Shown here in pieces: positions 1 through 42,750 of a stretch of 64,000 nucleotides of DNA. A program made the position numbers and the translations under genes. The notes below the pieces were generated by a model. That model did no database searches, was not told where the DNA came from, and saw only the letters and a list, made by a program, of their open reading frames with translations. How positions within the stretch are numbered: position 1 is the stretch's first letter; each line of letters begins with the position of its first letter. Origin of the DNA: an uncultured Burkholderiales bacterium (lineage in GTDB: Bacteria > Pseudomonadota > Gammaproteobacteria > Burkholderiales > Burkholderiaceae_C); contig CAIKVH010000086.1 of NCBI GenBank assembly GCA_903830725.1, positions 1-64,000 of the forward strand. The letters are read 5' to 3'.

Positions 1-772
1 ATTCATTAAGCGTATCCGTGTGAATTGCGACTTGGGTATCGGTTTGCTCTGCTACGTTTAGGCAGTTATCTATCGCAGCCGGTGTAGTTCCCCAGTCCTC
101 ATGTAATTTAAGCCCAATAGCGCCTGCATCAATTTGCTCTGTAAGTGCTTCAGGTAACGATGCATTTCCCTTACCCAAGAAACCAAGGTTCATTGGAAAT
201 GCGTCCGCTGCTTGGAGCATTCGCTCTAGATTCCATGCACCAGGTGTACAAGTCGTTGCGAATGTTCCCGTTGCAGGCCCCGTACCGCCGCCAATCATTG
301 TCGTGACGCCGCTCGTAAGCGCCTCCTCAATTTGTTGGGGAGCAATGAAATGGATGTGAGTATCAATACCGCCTGCGGTGACGATCATCCCTTCGCAGCT
401 AATGATCTCCGTACCTGGCCCAATAATGATATCTACCCCCGGTTGCGTATCGGGGTTGCCAGCTTTGCCGATGGCTGCGATTCGACCACCCTTGAGTCCT
501 ATATCGGCTTTAACGATTCCCCAGTGGTCCAAGATTAACGCATTTGTTAGCACAGTATCCATTGCGCCTTGACTACTTGAACGTTGACTTTGAGCCATGC
601 CGTCTCGAATGGTCTTACCGCCCCCAAACTTAACCTCCTCGCCGTAGGCGCCCGCACGAAGCGTTAAATCATCCTCTACCTCCAGGATGAGGGCTGTGTC
701 TGCGAGTCGTACTCGGTCCCCAGTAGTTGGACCAAACATTTCCGCATAAGCGCGTCTGTCAATGGTGCTCAT
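1..772 (-). CDS. ureC: urease subunit alpha, N-terminal part (gene runs off the left edge)
   Basis: Catalytic subunit of the cytosolic nickel urease (urea to ammonia and carbamate). About 257 N-terminal residues are present; the family is about 570, so the gene continues beyond position 1. Visible active-site features: THIH nickel ligands at residues 138-141, the LKLHEDWG stretch with the carbamylated lysine at residue 222 and a nickel histidine at 224, and the AIHTDTLNE histidine at 251. The ATG at 772-770 overlaps the ureB stop by one base (TAATG), typical of translational coupling. The order on the minus strand is ureA, ureB, ureC; accessory genes ureE/F/G would lie off the left edge if present. 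Identity is certain. Confidence 0.97.
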
Positions 773-1113
773 TACTTACCCCCTTTGACGACAGAGGGGC
801 TACTTTGTCCAACTGGGCCCTGATGCATACCTCTAAATCCGTAAACAACTCGAGCGCCTGCGTAATCCACGAGCTCCACAGTGCGTTGCTGTCCAGGCTC
901 GAACCGAACGGCGGTACCAGAGGGGATGTTTAAACGCATACCAACCGCTTGTGCTCTATCAAACACCAAGGCGCCATTGGTTTCTGAAAAATGATAATGT
1001 GATCCGACCTGAATAGGCCTGTCGCTTGCGTTTTGAACAACAACGGTGATTGTTCTTCGTCCGGTATTGATCTCGTGCGAGCCAGGGCGAGTGAAGAGTT
1101 CTCCAGGAATCAT
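772..1113 (-). CDS. ureB: urease subunit beta
   Basis: Small structural subunit of urease, 113 residues, typical for the separate UreB of proteobacteria. It opens with MIPGEL and carries the family stretches [21 protein letters not shown] and HYHFSETN. It packs against UreA and UreC in the (ABC)3 trimer and makes no direct contribution to catalysis. It lies between ureA (77 bp upstream) and ureC (one-base overlap downstream), so the three are one transcription unit on the minus strand. Confidence 0.97.
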
Positions 1114-1190
1114 ATTCGTTTCTCTTTCTCTAAGTCTGTGGGCTGTAGTTTAAATGCTTGTGAAATCAGTCAAACGCTAAACATCAAACG

Positions 1191-1493
1191 TTAAACGATG
1201 GGCTGATGAACCGTGACAAGCTTTGTTCCATCTGGGAACGTCGCCTCGACTTGAATGTCTGGAATCATCTCTGCAATGCCTTCCATCACATCCGCACGCG
1301 TCAGTATGTTTCTCCCCTCACTCATTAACTGCGCTACGGTCTTGCCCTCACGGGCACCTTCCATGACAGTTGCAGAGATGAGAGCTACGGCCTCTGGATA
1401 ATTCAGTTTTAAGCCCTTTGCACGACGTCGTTCTGCGAGCAAGGAGGCCGTAAATATCAATAACTTATCTTTCTCTCTTGGGGTGAGTTCCAT
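1191..1493 (-). CDS. ureA: urease subunit gamma
   Basis: Smallest urease subunit, 100 residues, full family length. It starts [31 protein letters not shown]-type and ends with VTVHQPIV, both diagnostic for UreA. It is the first gene of the visible ureABC run on the minus strand and diverges from urtA across a 423-bp intergenic region. ureD, which usually sits immediately upstream of ureA, is instead more than 6 kb away beyond the urt operon, on the same strand as ureA. Confidence 0.97.
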
Positions 1494-1689
1494 ATCAAAT
1501 CTTTCAAATAGCTGAATTTAGTCCGCTGAAGGAACGGTATTCATAGATAGCAATGAACCTCGTATTTTCTTACGCTAGGGCTCTCTTAATTACTTATTAT
1601 CCGCCCCAGGCGCTGTTTTTTAAAAGTTGTTTTGTCTAAAGAATTTTGACTCAATACTCTTTTTAGTGCTTCAATAAACGCCCTTAATC

Positions 1690-1728
1690 GGTGCGACCCG
1701 CACCAGTTCGTGCGCACTAATTTGGGAT
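1690..1728. promoter_or_regulatory. putative NtrC-type enhancer sites for urtA
   Basis: Contains GGTGCG, CGCACC and then GCGCACTAATTTGGGATT. The last resembles the enteric NtrC site TGCACTA-N3-TGGTGCA: the left half GCACTA is intact and the right half keeps only TTGG. It lies 105-140 bp upstream of the sigma-54 element, a usual enhancer distance. The match was found by eye and the right half is degenerate. Confidence 0.4.
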
Positions 1729-1830
1729 TGGTTGAGTTTACGGTGGGCGGGTATTTCATGATTTTATCGATTTGGTAATTAAAAAGCATTATTTGAAGGT
1801 GACTTTTTCGGGGTTGGGCCATTCTATTGA

Positions 1831-1847
1831 TGGGCACGACGGTTGCG
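1831..1847 (+). promoter_or_regulatory. sigma-54 (RpoN) promoter of urtA
   Basis: The sequence GGGCACG-ACGG-TTGC matches the -24/-12 consensus TGGCACG-N4-TTGC at 10 of 11 defined bases with exact spacing (GG at 1833-1834, GC at 1845-1846). Transcription would start near 1858, leaving a leader of about 60 nt before the urtA ATG at 1917. It fits known nitrogen control of urea importers through NtrC and RpoN. Confidence 0.75.
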
Positions 1848-1916
1848 TTAAGGGATAGCATTTTAAAAAATTGCTTGAGCTTTATTTATATTTTTTCTTC
1901 AACCTTGGAGTTGTTT

Positions 1917-3191
1917 ATGTTGAATCGACGAGGTAATTTGAAAGCCCTTGCTGCTGCTGCGGCAATGGTATCTGGATCTTTGGTCTTTGCACCTGCGGCA
2001 TTGGCTGAGGACACCATTAAGGTTGGTGTTTTGCACTCCCTTTCTGGAACGATGGCTATTTCTGAGACTGTACTCAAGGATACGGTTCTGATGGCCATTG
2101 ATGAGATCAATGCAAAAGGCGGTGTGTTGGGCAAGAAGTTAGAGCCCGTTGTGGTTGATCCGGCTTCAAATTGGCCGTTATTTGCAGAAAAAGCCAAGCA
2201 ATTGCTCACTCAAGACAAGGTGGCGGTGACTTTTGGTTGCTGGACCTCAGTAAGTCGCAAGTCAGTACTACCCGTATATGAAGAGTTAAACGGTCTATTG
2301 TTCTACCCAGTTCAATATGAGGGCGAGGAGTTGTCCAAAAATGTGTTCTATACAGGAGCGGCTCCAAACCAACAAGCCATACCCGCAGTTGATTATTTGA
2401 TGAGCAAAGAGGGTGGCGGTGCTAAGCGCTGGGTTCTCCTCGGCACAGATTATGTATATCCCCGCACAACCAACAAAATCCTTCGCGCTTACCTGAAAAG
2501 CAAGGGTGTTAAGGATACGGACATTGATGAGAAATACACGCCTTTCGGGCACTCAGACTATCAGACAATCGTATCTGACATTAAAAAATTCTCTACGGGT
2601 GGCAAAACAGCCGTTGTCTCAACCATCAATGGTGACTCCAATGTACCTTTCTACAAAGAGCTTGGCAACGCAGGCTTAAAAGCCAAGGACGTCCCAGTTG
2701 TAGCTTTCTCAGTCGGTGAAGAAGAGTTACGCGGCGTGGACACTAAGCCTTTGGTTGGTCACTTGGCTGCTTGGAATTACTTCATGAGCATTAAGAATCC
2801 AACCAATGATGAGTTCATCAAGAAATGGTCTACATACGCAAAAGCGCACAAAATTCCCGGTCACATGGATAAACCACTGACAAATGATCCAATGGAAGCT
2901 ACTTATATTGGTATCAACATGTGGAAACAAGCTGTTGAAAAAGCAAAATCAACTGATGTTGATAAAGTGATTACCGCCATGGGAGGTCAAACCTTTAAAG
3001 CACCCAGTGGCATTACTTCTATGATGGATCCTAAGAACCACCACTTACACAAGTCAGTTTTCATTGGCGAGATTAAGGCGGATGGTCAATTTAACGTCGT
3101 ATGGAGTACCAAGGACCCTGTAAAAGCTAAGCCTTGGAGCCCTTATATTGAGGGCAATGATAAAAAGCCAGATGAGCCAGTTAAAAAATAA
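1917..3191 (+). CDS. urtA: urea ABC transporter, substrate-binding protein
   Basis: Periplasmic urea-binding protein of the UrtABCDE importer (Leu/Ile/Val-type binding fold). The ATG at 1917 is preceded by GGAG at 1907-1910 and gives a signal peptide (MLNRRGN..., Ala-rich core, cleavage near ALAEDT). In-frame TTG starts further upstream overlap the promoter and are rejected. Family stretches include IKVGVLHSLSGTMAISE, FGCWTSVSRKSVLPV, LLFYPVQYEGEE and EATYIGINMWKQAVEKA. About 424 residues, the usual UrtA size. It heads the urt operon and is separated from urtB by a hairpin that could keep the binding protein more abundant than the membrane parts. Confidence 0.95.
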   Translation: MLNRRGNLKALAAAAAMVSGSLVFAPAALAEDTIKVGVLHSLSGTMAISETVLKDTVLMAIDEINAKGGVLGKKLEPVVVDPASNWPLFAEKAKQLLTQDKVAVTFGCWTSVSRKSVLPVYEELNGLLFYPVQYEGEELSKNVFYTGAAPNQQAIPAVDYLMSKEGGGAKRWVLLGTDYVYPRTTNKILRAYLKSKGVKDTDIDEKYTPFGHSDYQTIVSDIKKFSTGGKTAVVSTINGDSNVPFYKELGNAGLKAKDVPVVAFSVGEEELRGVDTKPLVGHLAAWNYFMSIKNPTNDEFIKKWSTYAKAHKIPGHMDKPLTNDPMEATYIGINMWKQAVEKAKSTDVDKVITAMGGQTFKAPSGITSMMDPKNHHLHKSVFIGEIKADGQFNVVWSTKDPVKAKPWSPYIEGNDKKPDEPVKK

Positions 3192-3221
3192 CCTATTGAG
3201 TTGATGTGTACACAGGATGGG

Positions 3222-3255
3222 GGAGGAGCGCTTGGTGCGAATCCTCCATTTTTTT
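3222..3255 (+). terminator. hairpin with T-run between urtA and urtB (attenuating terminator)
   Basis: GGAGGA (3222-3227) pairs with TCCTCC (3242-3247), with an inner CGC/GCG pairing around TTGGT, followed by seven T residues (3249-3255). It has the form of an intrinsic terminator. Being inside the operon, it probably terminates partially and boosts urtA over urtBCDE. Confidence 0.7.
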
Positions 3256-3321
3256 ATACTGTAGATTTACCAGCGCCACTTTAAAATAAATTAGCACGAG
3301 GGTTAATCCCCTGCGCATAAA

Positions 3322-3366
3322 ATAAGTTGGATAAGTTGGATAAGCTGGATAAGTTGGATAAGTTAT
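3322..3366 (+). repeat. 9-bp tandem repeat upstream of urtB
   Basis: About 4.7 copies of ATAAGTTGG (one copy has ATAAGCTGG) in the urtA-urtB spacer. Because the unit is 9 bp it reads as repeated Asp-Lys-Leu in the urtB frame, but only TTG codons are available as starts there. I take it as non-coding, about 45 bp upstream of the urtB ATG. It could vary in copy number and alter the leader of urtB. Confidence 0.85.
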
Positions 3367-3410
3367 ATATTTATTTTTTCATATGCAAATCAAAGAAATC
3401 ATTTTTCGGC

Positions 3411-5012
3411 ATGATTAAATTAAATAAAATTGAAGCACTGCTAAAGAATTTTCTTCTTATCGCAATAATTTCTATTTCAGTGGACTCTTCCTTTGCTTTG
3501 TCGCTGGAGCAGGTTAAAAAATTATCTATTGGTGAGACTGACACAAGAATTCAAGTTTTAAACCAAGTTATTAAAGAGCCTGATGCGAGAACGCTTGTTT
3601 TTCTTCAAGCCCTATCGGACGACAGCGTAAAAATTTTAGATGGTCACGCTTTCATCATCAAAAACAATCTTGGGATTGATCCTTTAACAGGCGAACCAGT
3701 ACAAGTCCCCGTCGACGCGCAAGACGTAGTCAGTAACAACAGAATGCGAGGCGAATTAGACTCTGCATTATCTGCGCTGAGACTTTTCAGTACAGATCCC
3801 AAGCTAAGGCTTGCTGCCGTAAAGGATCTTCAAAAAGAGCCGGATGTAGATAAGTTGGAGGTGCTCGAGCGTGCCCTTAAACTAGAGCAAGTGCAAGACA
3901 TTCGCATTCAAATTAACATAGCAAAGTCCAGTGTTTTATTAAGCGATGCAGATCCTGGTGTAAGACTATTTGCAGCAAAGAAACTATCTGAAAGCCACAC
4001 GCCAGAAACGCAGTTATTGCTTAATCAGCGTGTTGATTTGGAGACTGATCCTAGGGTCAAGGCTGCTTTGCAAGAGTCCCTCAAAACAATCGCCGCCTCT
4101 TTGGTTTGGGGCGATCGACTTGGCGCTTTATTTACTGGAATTAGTTTGAGCTCAATACTCTTATTGGTAGCGCTTGGTTTGGCAATTACGTACGGCTTAA
4201 TGGGCGTCATTAATATGGCCCACGGTGAGCTCATGATGGTCGGGGCCTATGCGACCTACGTCATACAAACGTTCTTTAATCACCATTTAAATGCATATTT
4301 TGATTACTACCTTGTTATTGCTGTGCCCGCTTCATTTTTAGTTGCGGCTTTTGTAGGTGCTGTGCTAGAGAGGAGTGTGCTTCGTTTTCTATACGGTCGG
4401 CCTTTAGAAACATTATTAGCCACTTGGGGCATTAGTTTGATTTTGATGCAGTTTGTGAGGACCATTTTTGGAGCTCAAAATGTAGCGGTTGAAAATCCGT
4501 CGTGGATGAGTGGCGGCATACAAGCCTTACCGAATTTAACGCTGCCATGGAACCGGATTATCATCATTGTGTTTGCAGCATTTGTGTTGATCGGTATGGC
4601 GCTCCTAATCTCCAAAACACGTCTGGGGTTGTTTGTACGTGGAGTGACTCAAAACAGACCTATGGCCGCGTGTATGGGCGTTAATACCGCCAGAATTGAC
4701 ACTTACGCTTTCGCACTTGGATCCGGGATTGCTGGATTGGCGGGTTGTGCGCTCAGCCAAATTGGAAACGTTGGTCCCGATTTAGGTCAAGGATATATTG
4801 TTGATGCGTTTATGGTCGTCGTGCTCGGCGGAGTCGGGCAATTGGCCGGCACCGTATACGCGGCGCTTGGGTTAGGAGTTATTAACAAAATATTAGAGGG
4901 TTTAACAGGCGCCGTACTTGCGAAAATTGCAGTACTTGTCTTTATCGTGGTCTTCATTCAGAAAAGACCTCAAGGACTTTTTGCGGTCAAAGGCCGTAGC
5001 GCTGAAGCTTAA
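3411..5012 (+). CDS. urtB: urea ABC transporter permease, with periplasmic N-terminal domain
   Basis: Inner-membrane permease of the urea importer, LivH-type. From ATG 3411 (MIKLNKIEALLKN...) the protein has a signal peptide, a helical periplasmic domain of roughly 200 residues with HEAT-like repeats (DPKLRLAAVKDLQ, DPGVRLFAAKKLSE), and then the LivH core (GLAITYGLMGVINMAHGELMM, DAFMVVVLGGVGQLAGT). This extended N-terminus is characteristic of UrtB and not of amino-acid LivH. An upstream in-frame TTG at 3327 would add a repeated Asp-Lys-Leu leader from the tandem repeat and is unlikely. No strong ribosome binding site is visible before 3411, so the start is moderately sure; the identity is not in doubt. 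Confidence 0.93.
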   Translation: MIKLNKIEALLKNFLLIAIISISVDSSFALSLEQVKKLSIGETDTRIQVLNQVIKEPDARTLVFLQALSDDSVKILDGHAFIIKNNLGIDPLTGEPVQVPVDAQDVVSNNRMRGELDSALSALRLFSTDPKLRLAAVKDLQKEPDVDKLEVLERALKLEQVQDIRIQINIAKSSVLLSDADPGVRLFAAKKLSESHTPETQLLLNQRVDLETDPRVKAALQESLKTIAASLVWGDRLGALFTGISLSSILLLVALGLAITYGLMGVINMAHGELMMVGAYATYVIQTFFNHHLNAYFDYYLVIAVPASFLVAAFVGAVLERSVLRFLYGRPLETLLATWGISLILMQFVRTIFGAQNVAVENPSWMSGGIQALPNLTLPWNRIIIIVFAAFVLIGMALLISKTRLGLFVRGVTQNRPMAACMGVNTARIDTYAFALGSGIAGLAGCALSQIGNVGPDLGQGYIVDAFMVVVLGGVGQLAGTVYAALGLGVINKILEGLTGAVLAKIAVLVFIVVFIQKRPQGLFAVKGRSAEA

Positions 5013-5030
5013 AAATATTGCCTCATTTAT

Positions 5031-6155
5031 ATGCAAAATTCAATCGTCCTCCCTGAATCCTCTCCTCTTTTGACCAAGTTGGGGTGGACCGCTTTTCTAG
5101 TGATAACTACTTTGCTCACGGCACTTGTTCCAGTTCTGAATATTTGGGTAGAGCCTACGAGCGCCTTTCATATCAGTGACTTTATGGTTGCGCTGGTAGG
5201 CAAGATTATGTGCTACGCCATTTGTGCATTGGCCATGGATCTTATATGGGGATACACCGGTATCTTGTCGCTGGGGCATGGATTGTTCTTTGCGCTTGGT
5301 GGTTATGCCATGGGCATGTATTTGATGCGTCAAATCGGACTGGACGGGAATTACAAATCCGAGTTACCTGACTTTATGGTCTTTTTGGATTGGAAGACAT
5401 TGCCCTGGCACTGGATGCTTAGTGGTAGCTTTGTCGCAACACTGGTGTTGATAGTGTTAGTGCCTGCTTTGGTTGCTTTTGTATTCGGGTATTTTGCCTT
5501 TCGATCCAGGATCAAGGGTGTTTATTTCTCTATCATCACACAGGCTCTAACTTTCGCAACGATGTTACTGTTTTTTAGAAATGAAACTGGATTTGGTGGC
5601 AACAACGGATTCACTGACTTTAAAAGAATCCTTGATATTCCAATTGCGACCCAGACTACTCGGATGGTTCTCTTTATTTTGACTGCTCTGACTTTGTTGG
5701 GTTTTTATTTATTAGCAAAATTTTTGGTTCAAAGTAAATTTGGTCGTCTGCTCCAAGCCATTCGTGATGCAGAGAGTAGAGTGATGTTCTGCGGTTACTC
5801 GCCGGTACCATATAAACTTGCAATCTGGACTTTATCTGCTGTCATGTGCGCCGTAGCGGGGGCTTTGTATGTGCCTCAAATTGGTATTATCAATCCAAGC
5901 GAGATGAGTCCGGCTAATTCAATTGAGATTGCTATATGGGCTGCCGTCGGGGGGAGAGGAACATTATTGGGGCCGATAGTTGGAGCATTCATCGTAAACG
6001 GCGCTAAGAGTTGGCTCACTATGACGGCCCCCGAATTTTGGCTTTATTTCCTAGGTGCGTTATTTATTTCGGTGACCTTGTTTTTGCCAAATGGTGTTTT
6101 AGGACTTATCCGTAAGCTTACCAAAGCAGCCCTTGATAAGAGGGCTACTTTATGA
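5031..6155 (+). CDS. urtC: urea ABC transporter permease
   Basis: Second inner-membrane permease of the urea importer, LivM-type, 374 residues with about ten hydrophobic segments. Family stretches: ALAMDLIWGYTGILSLGHGLFFALGGYAMGMY, FGYFAFRSRIKGVYFSIITQALTFA split over helices, FGGNNGFTDF and WAAVGGRGTLLGPIVGA. It begins 18 bp after urtB and overlaps urtD by four bases (ATGA), so it is translationally coupled to urtD. Confidence 0.95.
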   Translation: MQNSIVLPESSPLLTKLGWTAFLVITTLLTALVPVLNIWVEPTSAFHISDFMVALVGKIMCYAICALAMDLIWGYTGILSLGHGLFFALGGYAMGMYLMRQIGLDGNYKSELPDFMVFLDWKTLPWHWMLSGSFVATLVLIVLVPALVAFVFGYFAFRSRIKGVYFSIITQALTFATMLLFFRNETGFGGNNGFTDFKRILDIPIATQTTRMVLFILTALTLLGFYLLAKFLVQSKFGRLLQAIRDAESRVMFCGYSPVPYKLAIWTLSAVMCAVAGALYVPQIGIINPSEMSPANSIEIAIWAAVGGRGTLLGPIVGAFIVNGAKSWLTMTAPEFWLYFLGALFISVTLFLPNGVLGLIRKLTKAALDKRATL

Positions 6156-6976
6156 ATGCTATTGCGAACTCAAACACATATCAAAGCTCCTCAGTTTCCC
6201 TAACGGGGTTAAAGCGCTCTACGGAGCCAAATCTTGCGCACGGAAGAATTCTCTATTTAGAGGACGTTAACGTGAGTTTTGATGGTTTTAGGGCCATCAA
6301 TCATTTGTCTCTTGATATAGCCCCCGGTGAACTTCGCTGCATCATTGGCCCTAATGGTGCGGGTAAAACGACCATGATGGATATCATCACCGGTAAAACC
6401 AAACCCGATTCGGGTCAAGTTTACTTTGGTAGCAACGTGAACTTACTTGAGTTTAATGAACCTGAAATTGCAAAGTTAGGGATAGGGCGTAAATTTCAAA
6501 AGCCAACTGTGTTTGAGCAACTCAGCGTGTTTGAGAATTTAGAGCTTGCATTGAAGTCAGACAAAAGCGTTTCTGCATCTATATTTTTTAAACTCAATGC
6601 GGAGCAAAAAATTAGATTGATTGAGGTGTTGGAAACAATCAAATTAGAGGACGCGCTTTATCATCAGGCAGGCAATTTAAGTCACGGACAAAAGCAGTGG
6701 CTAGAAATTGGAATGCTTTTAATGCAAGAGCCTAAACTCTTGTTGCTCGATGAACCTGTAGCGGGTATGACGGATCAAGAGACGCACCGGACTGCGGAAC
6801 TGTTTTTAACGCTCAAAGGAAAACATTCCCTCGTTGTTGTTGAGCATGACATGACGTTTATTAAAACCATCGCAGAAAAAATCACTGTTTTAAGCGAAGG
6901 ATCGGTTTTGGCGGAAGGCACGTTTGATCAAGTTCAGGCGAACGAAAAAGTGATTGAAGTTTATTTAGGTCGATGA
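6152..6976 (+). CDS. urtD: urea ABC transporter ATP-binding protein UrtD
   Basis: First of the two cytosolic ATPases of the urea importer (LivG-like), 274 residues. Walker A GPNGAGKTT, the family stretch IGRKFQKPTVFEQLSVFENLELAL, signature LSHGQKQWLEIGMLL, Walker B LLLLDEPVAGMT and H-loop VVEHDMTFI are all present. About 35 residues precede the ABC domain, common in UrtD. The ATG overlaps the urtC stop (ATGA) and the stop abuts the urtE ATG. Confidence 0.95.
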   Translation: MNAIANSNTYQSSSVSLTGLKRSTEPNLAHGRILYLEDVNVSFDGFRAINHLSLDIAPGELRCIIGPNGAGKTTMMDIITGKTKPDSGQVYFGSNVNLLEFNEPEIAKLGIGRKFQKPTVFEQLSVFENLELALKSDKSVSASIFFKLNAEQKIRLIEVLETIKLEDALYHQAGNLSHGQKQWLEIGMLLMQEPKLLLLDEPVAGMTDQETHRTAELFLTLKGKHSLVVVEHDMTFIKTIAEKITVLSEGSVLAEGTFDQVQANEKVIEVYLGR

Positions 6977-7675
6977 ATGAAATTGCTAGAACTCTCAAAT
7001 ATCAATCAGTATTACGGTGGCTCTCACATTCTTAGGGACGTGAGTATCAGTGCTGAGATCGGTAAAGTGACGGTGCTTTTAGGTAGAAACGGTGTGGGCA
7101 AGACGACGCTACTCAAATCCTTAATGGGTTTAGTGCCGATTCGCTCAGGCTCTATTTTCTTTAATGGTGTGCAAATTGCACATACGTCCTGTGATGAGCG
7201 AGCTCGAGCTGGCATTGGCTTTGTTCCCCAAGGGCGCGAGATTTTCAATCGTCTGTCGGTTCAAGATAACCTGCGAATGGGGTTGGCGGCAAAGCCAGCA
7301 TCTACGCCCATTTCGCGTGAGTTGTTTGAGTTGTTTCCGGTTCTTCAACAAATGTTGAACCGCAAAGGGGGGGACCTATCGGGTGGGCAACAACAACAAC
7401 TTGCAATAGCAAGAGCTCTCGCGAGTGGTCCTAAACTCTTGGTTTTAGATGAGCCAACAGAGGGTATCCAACCAAGCATTATTAAAGATATTGGGCGAGT
7501 GATCAAAATGCTAGCCTCCCGCGGCGACATGGGCATTTTGCTTTGCGAGCAGTATTATGATTTTGCAGAAGAGTTAGCGGATGCTTATATCGTTATGGAA
7601 CGTGGTGAGGTGGTAGCGAGTGGGCTGGGTTCTGAAATGCAATCCAAGGGTATTCGTCAAATGGTTGCGATCTAG
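6977..7675 (+). CDS. urtE: urea ABC transporter ATP-binding protein UrtE
   Basis: Second ATPase of the urea importer (LivF-like), 232 residues. Walker A GRNGVGKTT, Q-loop region IGFVPQGREIFNRLSVQDNL, signature LSGGQQQQLAIARAL, Walker B LLVLDEPTEGIQPS and the switch region LLCEQYYDFAEELAD typical of UrtE are all visible. It starts directly after the urtD stop. Its last codons overlap the end of ureD on the other strand by four bases, so the two transcripts converge with no room for a dedicated terminator. Confidence 0.95.
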   Translation: MKLLELSNINQYYGGSHILRDVSISAEIGKVTVLLGRNGVGKTTLLKSLMGLVPIRSGSIFFNGVQIAHTSCDERARAGIGFVPQGREIFNRLSVQDNLRMGLAAKPASTPISRELFELFPVLQQMLNRKGGDLSGGQQQQLAIARALASGPKLLVLDEPTEGIQPSIIKDIGRVIKMLASRGDMGILLCEQYYDFAEELADAYIVMERGEVVASGLGSEMQSKGIRQMVAI

Positions 7676-8511
7676 AGCGACCAAATTCTAGGCATCACAG
7701 ATTCAAGCCCCCACACGTTTGATCGCCAAGAAAGCCAAATACCTCGCATAAGTTGCATCGAAGGCTCCACCAAATCAGACAGCATTCGAACGACAACAAT
7801 GTTTGGATTCGGAGATGTGACACCCGCTTGAACTGTTTGCATACCCTCTTGCTCGCTCAATAGTACTCCGCGAGCCAGTTCTAAGAGTTGGTTTATTTGC
7901 TCCTGATTCTTTTGAGTTGCACTGGCAAATACAAGCGTAGACAAACACTTCTTGGCGTTTAATCCAAGAGGACTATTAAGTAAATTTAAGTCCTCTGCGC
8001 GAATCCGACCTTTATCTAGCCAGTGATCTTTAAGCTCAAAATGCTGCTCAATTAAGCCAGTCTGAAAGGGAAGGTTAGCGCTTGGCATACCCAGTGCTGT
8101 AATGTCCCATGCAATTAATTCTGATTTATCTTTTAAATCAAACTTACATGTGTTTCTCGCTCTACATCCGTTGTATGCAAGGGTTTCAAGGGGGAGCCAT
8201 TCGAGTTTAGAGGAGTCTCGCAACTGAACGTCAACTGTTTGGGTAGCCCACTCACTGGTGGACTTATAAAAACGAGTCGCACCAGGTGTCGTGATGAGTG
8301 CGTGCGCATTGTCCCTAGCATCTATGTTGATGTCTAGCGAGTCACCTGCTACTAGGCCACTAGGGGGATGAATTAAGACGTTATGGCATATCCCCGGCCC
8401 CTCGGGGTAGAGGCTACGCAAAATACGCAGTGGGCCAACATGCTCAAACTTAACTTGACTGGTTATATTTTCGCGGCTGTAATGCAGATCAAGACGAGCG
8501 TTCCAACTCAC
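7672..8511 (-). CDS. ureD: urease accessory protein UreD (UreH)
   Basis: Chaperone that binds apo-urease and, with UreF and UreG, helps insert nickel. 279 residues, family length, with the stretches LYPEGPGICHNVLIHPPSGLVAGDSLDI, ITTPGATRFYKS and LPLETLAYNGCRARN. It lies on the same strand as ureABC but is separated from them by the whole urt operon, which points the other way. Its start codon is only 3 bp from the end of the upstream channel gene, so it probably shares that transcript. Identity is strong; the placement is unusual. Confidence 0.93.
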   Translation of the reverse strand: MSWNARLDLHYSRENITSQVKFEHVGPLRILRSLYPEGPGICHNVLIHPPSGLVAGDSLDINIDARDNAHALITTPGATRFYKSTSEWATQTVDVQLRDSSKLEWLPLETLAYNGCRARNTCKFDLKDKSELIAWDITALGMPSANLPFQTGLIEQHFELKDHWLDKGRIRAEDLNLLNSPLGLNAKKCLSTLVFASATQKNQEQINQLLELARGVLLSEQEGMQTVQAGVTSPNPNIVVVRMLSDLVEPSMQLMRGIWLSWRSNVWGLESVMPRIWSL

Positions 8512-8514
8512 GAC

Positions 8515-10170
8515 TTAGGTTGCGCCCTTTTGGGGATCATTCGGGCTGTTTGGACTAAGAGGTAAATTATTCATGATCAATCGCCATAAAGCGAGATCTG
8601 ATGCGGTAATTCGGTCCCTTGTCTGGGCAACCTCCTCAAACCGATTTCTATCCGTTAAAACGCTGAGCTCTTTGATCTCTGCTATCAAGCTCTTGTAGTG
8701 CTCAACCGCGTGCTCAGGAATCGCGGCAATTTTATGCAGCGGTAAAGCGGATATGTCGTCCATCATCTCTCGGTCTTTTTTGGCCCTCTCATACAAGCGG
8801 TTCAACTCCTCCTCGGACATGTGAAGTCGCTTTGCCTCCCGGTTTATGATATCTGCATCCTCGATGGATAATTTTCCTGCAGAGAGCATTTCATAGAGAC
8901 GGTTTAAGAGTTTTTCTCTATCAATTCGCAATTGATCACTAAATGCGGCGGACAAAAGAGCGGCTGGAATTGCAAATATTCCAATACCCATCAAAGCCAA
9001 AATAATCGTCATCGCCCGCCCCATGGGCGTAACCGGCGTTAAGTCACCATAACCCACAGATGCCAATGTAATCACAGCCCAGTAAATGGCTTGAGGAATA
9101 TTTTCAAATTTGTCGGGTTGAGCCTCATGTTCAAACAAATAACCCAAACTAGCGGTTAAGACAACCAGCAAAAGCATGATAAAACCAGACGCTGCCATAA
9201 AAGGCCATTCACGCGCGATAACCTTACCTAGTGTTGCTGTGGCCTCTGTGTAGCGGGTCAGTTTTAAGAGCCGCATCAAACGGAATACTCTTAAAAAACG
9301 CAGATCAAACAAGTGATGTAAAAATACTTCTAAGAAAAATGGCAATATCGCTAAAAAGTCGATGATTGAAGACGTGGTCTTTGCCAGCTTGAGCCTACCC
9401 CATACGGCGTGTTGGAAGCCGGGTTCCTCAACACATGTGTAAAGACGAAGAAAGTACTCAACAGTAAACACGCCCACAGCAACGGCGTCAAGTATCACGA
9501 ATTCAATATTTAAGATGTAATGGATGCCTTGGACAGATTCTAAGATTACGGCAATCACAGACACCACAACCCATAAAACGATGAACGAATCAAAGAGTTC
9601 GTGAAGCTTCCCACCGTATTCCGATGGGTAGATGATGGCATGCATCTTTTGGCGGAAGGTTCGCTCTCGGTTGGCGACTCTAAAGTCTTGAATTGCAGGA
9701 ATGATCACTCTGAAGAGTTTCAAAATCCTCAAAAGTCTAAGCGCTCTTAAGATCCTCAAATCTACAGCAATAAACGATTGCAGGTAAAAGGGAATGATGG
9801 CCAAGAAGTCTATGATCGCAAAGGGACTGAAGATGTATCTCAGTGTTGGAAACCGTTTGTCCTTAAACTCATGGTCTACGGGGGATAAATACAAACGAGT
9901 TAGATACTCCGCAGTGAACACCACGACGGAGACAATATCAAAGAGATGAAACCATATTTTGTTGGGCTCAAAAATAGCTGGAACATGCTCAAACAGCAGC
10001 GCAAACATGTTCCCAACAATTAGGAGTCCAATCCACTTATCAACGGATTCAAGGTGATTTCCTTCTATTTCTGGATCCAATAGCCACTTGTAGAGCCATT
10101 CTTTAAATGGCAAGCCTGATGGAATTTCAACCTTGTAATCGGAGCCACGGAGTTTTGGTTCTTCAGTCAT
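8515..10170 (-). CDS. voltage-gated potassium-channel-like protein with two voltage-sensor modules and one pore
   Basis: 551 residues. A first S1-S4 voltage-sensor module spans about residues 44-157, with an S4 carrying R139, R142, R145, R148, K151 and R154 at every third position. It has no pore of its own. A second complete module follows: S1-S4 at about 190-306 (R291, R294, R297, R300, K303, R306), S5, the pore filter SVGYGD at 371-376, and S6 at about 385-412. A charged, mostly helical cytosolic tail of about 135 residues ends the protein. The second half closely resembles the single-sensor channel at 41581-42750, including the FEH-AQPDKFE-IP turret before the pore helix. The ordinary bacterial Kv plan has one sensor per pore. 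Gating and ion selectivity are inferred from motifs. It lies 26 bp downstream of a membrane-anchored unknown and 3 bp before ureD on one strand. Confidence 0.9.
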   Translation of the reverse strand: MTEEPKLRGSDYKVEIPSGLPFKEWLYKWLLDPEIEGNHLESVDKWIGLLIVGNMFALLFEHVPAIFEPNKIWFHLFDIVSVVVFTAEYLTRLYLSPVDHEFKDKRFPTLRYIFSPFAIIDFLAIIPFYLQSFIAVDLRILRALRLLRILKLFRVIIPAIQDFRVANRERTFRQKMHAIIYPSEYGGKLHELFDSFIVLWVVVSVIAVILESVQGIHYILNIEFVILDAVAVGVFTVEYFLRLYTCVEEPGFQHAVWGRLKLAKTTSSIIDFLAILPFFLEVFLHHLFDLRFLRVFRLMRLLKLTRYTEATATLGKVIAREWPFMAASGFIMLLLVVLTASLGYLFEHEAQPDKFENIPQAIYWAVITLASVGYGDLTPVTPMGRAMTIILALMGIGIFAIPAALLSAAFSDQLRIDREKLLNRLYEMLSAGKLSIEDADIINREAKRLHMSEEELNRLYERAKKDREMMDDISALPLHKIAAIPEHAVEHYKSLIAEIKELSVLTDRNRFEEVAQTRDRITASDLALWRLIMNNLPLSPNSPNDPQKGAT

Positions 10171-10196: not shown

Positions 10197-10853
10197 TCAG
10201 AAGTCAAATTCTGCGATTTTGGTTGGATAGGCGCCCTTATCGCAGATCGTTACCCGAACATTTATTTTGTCAACGATTGAATCATTGTCAGCCAAGGAGC
10301 TAGTCACCGTTGGAACCGCAGATCCAAGGGGCGTGTTAATATTTTTCTCGAGCACAAAGCCCCCTGCAGTGGAGAAGTCTCCTGGATCGCATTTGGCGAC
10401 AAGCGACAAAGGCTCAAGCGTGAAAGCATTTTTTAAATTAGACAGGGGCCCGCCTTTTTGCGTAAGTGCTTTGAAACACGCTCCCCACGAACCGCTTTGG
10501 ATATCCCCAATGGTGATGGGTTCGTTTTCTAAACCTTCTTTTTTAGCAAGTATCTTCGCGGCTCTGATAAGGTCTTTTCTTTCTTTCTCAACTGCGGCGG
10601 CAACGCTAGGGCCACCCGCACATGCAGCCGGTTGAAAGCCCTCTTTAAAACGATCAGCACTTGCGTCTGACATCCACTTTACCCAGGCTTCACCGTTTTC
10701 TTTTGAGCTCTCAGTTTTCATGCCCTCTTCAAAGGCAAGACGACCAAGCATCGTGACTGATATGAGCACTCCAACGAGAAAGATAAGAAATAAGATATCG
10801 GCCCACGTAGGACCTAATTTCTTAGGGACAGAGGTTTCTGCATGATTTTCCAT
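10197..10853 (-). CDS. membrane-anchored protein of unknown function upstream of the channel gene
   Basis: 218 residues; I do not recognise the family. There is a short cytosolic N-terminus, one hydrophobic segment at about residues 17-37 (DILFLIFLVGVLISVTML), and a soluble domain that should be periplasmic, with four cysteines (78, 126, 155, 204) that could form two disulphides. It ends 26 bp before the double-sensor channel and is probably cotranscribed with it, so a role as a channel partner is possible but purely positional. The ATG is followed by a coherent anchor, which supports this start. Confidence 0.7.
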   Translation of the reverse strand: MENHAETSVPKKLGPTWADILFLIFLVGVLISVTMLGRLAFEEGMKTESSKENGEAWVKWMSDASADRFKEGFQPAACAGGPSVAAAVEKERKDLIRAAKILAKKEGLENEPITIGDIQSGSWGACFKALTQKGGPLSNLKNAFTLEPLSLVAKCDPGDFSTAGGFVLEKNINTPLGSAVPTVTSSLADNDSIVDKINVRVTICDKGAYPTKIAEFDF

Positions 10854-41580: not shown

Positions 41581-42750
41581 CTACGCCGACAATGATTTCC
41601 AAATTTCACGCTCCAGTTGAGTGGTTTTGGATTCGTTATTGATTAAGTCACTCAAAGCATTAGCGTGTTCGCTCAAGGCTAGGCTGCGAAGAGTGCTGAT
41701 TTGTTGTCTGTAATCTTCAAGTGTGAGTTCAGTAGAGACTTTGCCTAGAACTGGAGAAGCCTCAGGGTTCAATTTCCTCTCTAAATCAACACGTTGAATA
41801 ATTTCTTCAAAGACGGCTTGAGATAAATGCAGACGTTCAGCCTCTAGCGCTAAATCTGCCTTGTCCTCTTCAGAGAAATTGTTGCTAGTGATGCGCTTTC
41901 TAACCTCATCCTCGAAGGTGTTCCTGTCCAAACGCAGTTGGTCGGTGAAAGAAGAGGCCATTAAACCAGCGGGGATTGCGAAAATACCAATTCCTACAAA
42001 GCTGACCACTACGGTCATTAAGCGTCCAAGTGGGGTGATGGGGGTGATGTCGCCGTAACCCACACTGGCAAGCGTGACGACTGCCCAGTACATGGAGGTT
42101 GGGATGCTCTCAAACTTGTCGGGCTGCGCGTCGTGTTCGAACATAAACCCCAGACTAGCGGTCAAAATGATCATGAGGAACATCATGAACGCGGCAGCCA
42201 AAAGAACATATTTCTCACGCTGAACGGCCTTCATTAATGTATTCAGGGTGCCCGTGTAGCGGGTTAACTTTAAAAGTCGTGTAAGTCTAAATATCCGCAG
42301 GAACCGCAGGTCGATCGATTTCGCCAAAAAAATATCGAGGTAGAAAGGACAGATTGCAATCAAATCGACTAGCGCACTGGCGGAGAAAATATATTTAATT
42401 CGTCCCTTAAACGGGTGCTCATATTGTTTTGATTCGCAGCAGCTGTAGACCCTGAGCACATATTCAAGCGAGAAAATAACAACTGTAATAAGGTCAAGGG
42501 TGTGAAACTCTTTGGACCAAACGCTCTCAATATCTTGAACAGTTTCAAGAACAATACAAATGACAGATACCAAAACGGCGAATATAACAACATAGTCAAT
42601 ATATTTGTTAAGACTATGTGAATGCGGTGTTGCATTAAATAGAGAAAAAATTTGCGCTCTGATCGGCTTGGTTTTATTATCTCGGCGGAATTTTAAAAAA
42701 TTATGAAAGATTGATAATACAGTTTCAATGAATTTTCTGAAAATTATCAT
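41581..42750 (-). CDS. voltage-gated potassium channel (single voltage sensor)
   Basis: 389 residues. One S1-S4 sensor with S4 charges R149, R152, R155, R158, K161 and R164; S5; the filter SVGYGD at 229-234; S6 (VGIGIFAIPAGLMASSF); and a cytosolic helical tail. The N-terminal ~45 residues are basic and cytosolic. It aligns over its whole length with the second half of the double-sensor channel at 8515-10170, sharing the FEHDAQPDKFESIP turret, the ITPLGR linker and the DQLRLDR start of the tail, so the two are paralogues. Selectivity for potassium is inferred from the filter. It lies between a coiled-coil small protein and the SRAP gene. Confidence 0.92.
   Translation of the reverse strand: MIIFRKFIETVLSIFHNFLKFRRDNKTKPIRAQIFSLFNATPHSHSLNKYIDYVVIFAVLVSVICIVLETVQDIESVWSKEFHTLDLITVVIFSLEYVLRVYSCCESKQYEHPFKGRIKYIFSASALVDLIAICPFYLDIFLAKSIDLRFLRIFRLTRLLKLTRYTGTLNTLMKAVQREKYVLLAAAFMMFLMIILTASLGFMFEHDAQPDKFESIPTSMYWAVVTLASVGYGDITPITPLGRLMTVVVSFVGIGIFAIPAGLMASSFTDQLRLDRNTFEDEVRKRITSNNFSEEDKADLALEAERLHLSQAVFEEIIQRVDLERKLNPEASPVLGKVSTELTLEDYRQQISTLRSLALSEHANALSDLINNESKTTQLEREIWKSLSA

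Follow-up and report, generated by a model that had tools for sequence, protein, structure and literature searches.

Introduction

Subunits of voltage-gated potassium (Kv) channels carry one voltage-sensor domain (VSD) per pore, and it is with one VSD per pore domain that the coupling of sensor to pore has so far been studied. A VSD without a pore occurs as an independent module in the voltage-sensing phosphatases and in Hv1, where it is able to conduct protons. Two sensors within one chain are found in the two-pore channels, in which the whole six-transmembrane (6-TM) unit is doubled and two pores are present. The tandem Kv channels of oomycetes, dinoflagellates and chlorarachniophytes likewise repeat the whole 6-TM unit and have two pores (PMC7576140).

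The channel gene described here lies in a stretch of 64,000 nucleotides from a Burkholderiales contig, analysed as a whole and referred to as the window. As in the protist tandem Kv channels, its product has two sensors per chain, but where these have two pores its first sensor, VSD1, is pore-less; the two-pore channels differ in the same way, as only one pore is present here. Compared with Kv channels of the PF00520 family, amongst which Kv4 and KCNQ rank highest among solved structures and which have one VSD, a complete second VSD precedes the usual unit. The pore-less VSD is shared with Hv1 and the voltage-sensing phosphatases, but in the present protein it precedes, and is fused to, a full Kv subunit, and its S4 is of the Kv type. 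A single-VSD sister channel in the same window (41581-42750) resembles the VSD2 and pore part of the protein and has no VSD1.

In the open-access literature we found no description of a bacterial subunit with two VSDs and one pore, in agreement with the initial annotation, which knew of none in bacteria. New beyond that annotation are the upstream gene U218, a second tandem channel in the same genome and companion genes in relatives. A natural and conserved 2:1 ratio of sensor to pore amounts to a ready-made experiment on separate sensor layers, and the tandem design could reveal how two layers of voltage sensor act on a single pore. In U218 there is, in addition, a candidate for the auxiliary subunit of a bacterial Kv channel; the 3 Mb genome of the host has nine channel genes of the voltage-gated type.

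Domain layout and predicted structure

The channel ORF starts with ATG and runs through 551 codons in a single frame without internal stop; the coordinates given in the initial annotation are correct, and the strand, which it did not state, is minus (Table 1). Pfam assigns Ion_trans (PF00520) to residues 191-413 and Ion_trans_2 to residues 332-410, and a genome search with PF00520 finds a second match in the N-terminal half, confined to S1-S4 (54.4 bits, E 1.4e-14), so that one frame holds an S1-S4 match followed by a full-length match. The S4 of VSD1 carries R139, R142, R145, R148, K151 and R154, that of VSD2 carries R291, R294, R297, R300, K303 and R306, and SVGYGD, within the pore sequence TLASVGYGD, is the sole filter in the chain. 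The initial description of a pore-less S1-S4 module with six S4 charges from R139 to R154, followed in the same chain by a full S1-S6 channel with its own six-charge S4 and an SVGYGD filter, is thus borne out in an unbroken frame, with the fifth charge of the first S4 being a lysine.

Table 1. Coordinates of the tandem channel, its domains and the upstream gene within the window
Feature	Position	Strand	Remarks
Tandem-VSD K+ channel gene	8515..10170	minus	551 aa: pre-S1, VSD1, linker, pre-S1, VSD2, pore, helical C-terminus
Helix before VSD1, residues 22-30	10081..10107	minus	AF2 model of residues 1-188, block pLDDT 91
VSD1, residues 39-157	9700..10056	minus	PF00520, AF2 helices, Foldseek to Kv VSDs, invariant residues
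VSD1 helices			S1 ~40-61; S2 ~71-98 (F85, E88, R92); S3 ~116-133 (D121); S4 ~138-157 (R139-R154)
Linker, residues 158-190	9601..9699	minus	joins VSD1 S4 to VSD2 S1
VSD2, residues 191-308	9247..9600	minus	S4 R291-R306; charge-transfer centre F235/E238/D271
S4-S5 linker, S5, pore helix, S6, residues 309-415	8926..9246	minus	
K+ selectivity filter SVGYGD, residues 371-376	9043..9060	minus	
Helical C-terminus, residues 416-551	8518..8925	minus	least conserved part; presumably cytoplasmic
U218, candidate auxiliary subunit	10197..10853	minus	218 aa; 26 nt upstream of channel start

The protein has the S1-S6 with charged S4 and the TxGYG-type K+ filter of a Kv channel, but departs from the rule of one VSD per pore domain by the extra VSD at residues 39-157, and we therefore regard it as a variant of the Kv kind. 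With one filter, one S5-S6 and no pore between VSD1 and VSD2 it is not a two-pore or two-repeat tandem channel, nor is it a chain devoid of any pore domain like Hv1, as VSD1 is fused to a Kv pore. The NCBIfam model K_channel_Meth (NF040645, hyperpolarisation-activated K+ channel) scores 60.5 bits against a cut-off of 300.

The full-length AlphaFold2 (AF2) model is of moderate quality (mean pLDDT 73.9, pTM 0.59, with the filter residues 373-377 below 50). Since a structural search with it was filled by matches to VSD2 and the pore and barely covered VSD1, a separate model of residues 1-188 was made, which has a Kv-type sensor fold at a pLDDT of 84.3; a failure of the first module to fold as a voltage sensor, raised initially as an objection, was hence not seen. 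The top PDB matches of this model are chains of Kv4, KCNQ and other Kv channels, with TMq of 0.45-0.60 among the 50 matches listed, two of which have E < 0.001, and a VSD1 profile search reaches Kv4.3 at 5.5e-9.

Conservation of both voltage sensors

Named genomes were scanned with a profile of VSD1 and linker, and the best 80 of 516 relatives were taken. In 76 of these 80 loci the tandem gene is near-full-length, and contig ends truncate the remaining four; the orthologue alignment built from this set consists of 75 distinct sequences and the window protein (76 rows). The distance from the S4 of VSD1 to the S4 of VSD2 (R145 to R297) is 152 residues and that from R297 to G373 is 76 residues in every row. 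Invariant in all 76 rows are F85, E88, R92, D121, R145, R148, K151 and R154 in VSD1, and F235, E238, R242, D271 and R291-K303 in VSD2. The remaining S4 positions vary little: R139 and R142 are each kept in 72 rows (with four His and four Lys, respectively, in the others), and R306 in 75, with one Lys. Throughout the alignment each sensor thus has no fewer than five S4 charges and a complete charge-transfer centre (F/E/D). The linker residues P158, A159, N167, R170 and R173 and the filter S371-D376 are also invariant in this alignment.

Mean pairwise identity in the same set (best 80 of 516) is 0.58 for the N-terminus, 0.68 for VSD1, 0.67 for the linker, 0.71 for VSD2, 0.82 for the pore and 0.48 for the C-terminus, and 28 of the 119 VSD1 columns are invariant. 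Against the four nearest relatives VSD1 has pN of 0.015-0.093 at pS of 0.75-0.87, and VSD2 has pN of 0.026-0.053; in two of the four pairs the VSD1 values (0.090 and 0.093) are about twice those of VSD2 (0.044 and 0.053). As synonymous sites are mostly saturated, dN/dS is not given for VSD1. Judged by these sequence comparisons, VSD1 is conserved nearly as well as VSD2, and its identity, invariant residues and low pN therefore indicate strong purifying selection that preserves the sensor residues.

Descent of VSD1 and VSD2

A tree was built from 97 VSDs, taken from 32 tandem proteins, 3 single-VSD sisters, 5 short-filter companions (see below) and 25 other Kv-type channels; it rests on 127 columns with an unsettled bootstrap, and its tandem proteins were picked by hand (the window protein and 25 plus 6 relatives; L045, L047, L051, L055 and others were left out). 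Every VSD1 falls in one clade (32 rows, support 100/99) and every VSD2 in a second (32 rows, 99/93), and the VSD2 clade groups with single-VSD channels (35 rows, 100/98). The sister channel of the window, 40% identical over the region 158-532, belongs here, its VSD grouping with all VSD2s. Main and diverged tandem channels separate alike among the VSD1s and among the VSD2s, as expected if both modules have travelled together since one origin. The separate clades, with VSD2 amongst single-VSD channels, rule out a recent internal duplication. The AU test does not reject an ancient one (p 0.325 and 0.441), and VSD1 and VSD2 can be aligned as an internal repeat with 39 of 140 positions identical at an offset of 150; the tandem design would have arisen either by fusion or by old duplication.

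Occurrence of the tandem channel

Amongst the 37 genomes of the genus, the own genome included, 33 carry a tandem channel, either full or cut by a contig end, with 54-94% identity for the best copies. Two of the others (G011 and G030) have a single-VSD relative only, G028 has weak matches only and G022 none; G022 and G030 are incomplete, at 79% and 62%, respectively. A stop interrupts one tandem copy each in G017 (contig C20) and G006 (contig C9), the latter having a second, intact copy, and the copy of G602 looks frameshifted. The own genome encodes a second tandem channel with 54% identity (contig C48, 25999-27534). In the titles of the best 80 of 516 relatives we find Burkholderiales, Comamonadaceae, Limnohabitans, Rhodoferax and other beta- and proteobacteria, including two isolates with an intact tandem frame, Limnohabitans sp. 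Rim11 (547 aa, L069) and JirII-31 (551 aa, L124); the hosts are freshwater bacteria related to Limnohabitans.

Across the family the tandem channel occurs in 10 of 399 genomes and 5 of 141 genera (E 1e-38). A VSD1 profile search of 369 Gammaproteobacteria genomes gave matches in 44, and the own genome is the only one with a tandem channel as judged by frame length, a measure that a frame-broken tandem gene could escape; two long frames of 683 and 671 aa from this survey are one-VSD channels in over-extended frames. Amongst 198 genomes of one family of the same phylum, 19 have a match and none a tandem channel (by inspection of the two long frames and by frame length for the others). Ten phage records matched, none of which covers 80% (five of the ten among the matches listed). 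Of 72,556 plasmid records 91 matched, and the best 15 of these 91 include one tandem channel, WP_159082572.1 of Gemmobacter aquarius, annotated as 'ion transporter', which is 37% identical over 373 residues with three gap positions and in which the VSD1 S4 has lost charges. Used as a query, the Gemmobacter protein is itself the only one of 82 records covered to at least 80%. Upstream of its gene (L193, 3809-5284), on the other strand, lies an apparent IS3-type transposase gene by our reading of the sequence; mobile transfer is possible. Given the 10 of 399 family genomes together with the Gemmobacter homologue, the tandem design is rare, yet found in more than one order.

The upstream gene U218

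U218 has one predicted transmembrane helix (residues 18-36) and four cysteines (78, 126, 155 and 204), which are invariant in 30 aligned rows (29 of 74 homologues and the window protein) and probably form part of a periplasmic domain. It belongs to no known family: 30 members gave no Pfam match, there is no NCBIfam match, and the best PDB hit has an E of 0.19. A homologue lies directly upstream in 74 of the 80 channel loci (best 80 of 516). Of the six remaining loci, five have no more than 214 nt of contig upstream, and L101 alone gives no match despite having sequence there. In the family survey, channel (E 1e-38) and U218 (E 1e-4) are found in the same 10 of 399 genomes (Fisher 4e-20 by genome and 2e-9 by genus, with kinship ignored and five genera involved). 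In G602 both genes look broken, and in G733 U218 is cut by a contig end. There is no U218 upstream of the second tandem channel on contig C48 or of the diverged tandem channels, and where a genome has two tandem channels, U218 occurs once. By genomic position and co-occurrence the two genes are linked, and U218 is likely an auxiliary subunit of the main tandem channel.

Neighbouring genes and Kv-like companions

The gene ureD (7672-8511) lies 3 nt downstream of the channel, urease alpha is found at 401-766 on the minus strand, and the other strand carries genes for a periplasmic binding protein and an ABC ATPase, which we take to be of urtA and urtE type. The channel operon thus borders on genes for urea uptake and urease, namely urease alpha, the Urt-type ABC genes and ureD, over 401-8511 of the window. 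As ureD homologues are present in 33 of 80 channel loci (best 80 of 516, some loci being short), the link to urea use is frequent rather than strict.

Among the best 80 of 516 relatives, companions were counted in the 64 loci that extend 2.3 kb or more downstream of the channel. By similarity, a Kv-like gene lies downstream in 27 of the 64 and in none of the other 37; in 26 of the 64 a gene of the '[SA]G[YF]GN' type occurs together with one of the '[SA]GWGN' type, L137 being assigned by similarity only. The companions are single-VSD Kv-like proteins with pores reading TIT[SA]G[YF]GN and TI[IV][SA]GWGN (for example the pair L079:7501+ and L079:8490+, with others in L040 and L051). From the pore-helix Trp to the filter Gly they are one residue shorter than the tandem channel, and Asn replaces Asp; from their sequence, they are possibly non-K-selective or regulatory subunits. 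Some SGYGN-type companions (L021:3117+, L051:5172-) have a CxxC...CxxC zinc-ribbon-like motif before the first transmembrane helix.

Proposed mechanism and alternatives

Architecture and conservation can be read from the sequences themselves, and the filter points to K+ conduction. The reading we prefer, with a probability of roughly 0.55, is a tetrameric voltage-gated K+ channel in which VSD1 would be a second working sensor tuning VSD2, with U218 as auxiliary subunit. Each subunit would have ten transmembrane helices, and VSD2 and the pore would form a normal tetrameric Kv channel. VSD1 would sit outside VSD2, giving an outer set of four sensors and an inner ring of four ordinary ones; by analogy with Kv tetramers it is fair to infer eight sensors round one pore, with up to 48 S4 charges. 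Upon depolarisation the S4 of VSD1 would move as in other Kv sensors. Because this S4 is joined by the conserved 33-residue linker to the pre-S1/S1 of VSD2 rather than to an S4-S5 linker, VSD1 would not pull on the gate directly but bias VSD2 allosterically, resulting in a shifted threshold or a steeper or two-step opening; U218 would bind to this assembly. We more tentatively envisage a fuller version, with two working sensors in series per subunit, the outer setting the inner, U218 as a dedicated beta-like partner of the eight-sensor K+ channel, and two short-filter Kv-like subunits co-assembling with it in a subclade.

Three roles had been put forward initially for the extra module: a second gate controller, a proton pathway and a docking part. 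The first appears to fit best because VSD1 keeps the determinants of a voltage sensor. It is unlikely that VSD1 is instead an assembly or docking module that has a VSD fold but senses no voltage and recruits U218, downstream Kv-like subunits or neighbouring channels. The tie of U218 to the main orthologue group, the companions in 27 of 64 loci (best 80 of 516) and the degraded S4 in Gemmobacter would suit such a role, but tandem channels without U218 exist, 37 of the 64 loci are without companions, and what voltage sensing needs (R145/R148/K151/R154 with F85/E88/D121) is invariant in 76 of 76 rows. A pure docking part seems to fit worse, since docking requires neither invariant S4 charges nor a charge-transfer centre.

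We consider it improbable that VSD1 provides its own ion pathway, as an Hv1-like proton channel fused to the K+ channel and moving H+ and K+ together. Hv1 sets a precedent for proton conduction by a pore-less VSD, and the neighbouring genes serve urea uptake and urease, a setting in which pH and NH4+ change; against this, the best matches of VSD1 are Kv sensors, and its S4, including K151 and R154, is a simple R/K ladder in which no Hv1-type signature is recognised by eye. Hv1 is absent among the PDB matches listed, which by itself is no evidence. It is still less probable that VSD1 persists for historical reasons as a silent remnant of a fusion or of a duplication within the gene: the internal repeat and the AU values would accommodate it, but a leftover would decay, and VSD1 stays close to VSD2 in identity, with its 28 of 119 columns invariant (best 80 of 516). 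The joining of two separate genes by a frame or assembly error, an objection raised initially, is refuted by the same intact frame in many independent assemblies across the genus and in the isolates Rim11 and JirII-31 (76 of 80 loci, best 80 of 516, the rest contig-cut); single broken copies occur elsewhere (G017, G006, G602), and none concerns the window.

Other voltage-gated-type channels

The own 3.05 Mb genome holds nine PF00520 channel genes, on contigs C70, C12, C86, C60, C48 and C133. Eight of the nine were classed: three Nav-like (TLESW/TLEGW), two tandem-VSD, one single-VSD sister and two with TTGYGD. Amongst the relatives, a Nav-like (TLESW) channel gene immediately precedes each of the diverged tandem channels L040:8176- and L055:5504-, possibly forming a Na+/K+ channel pair with it in one operon.
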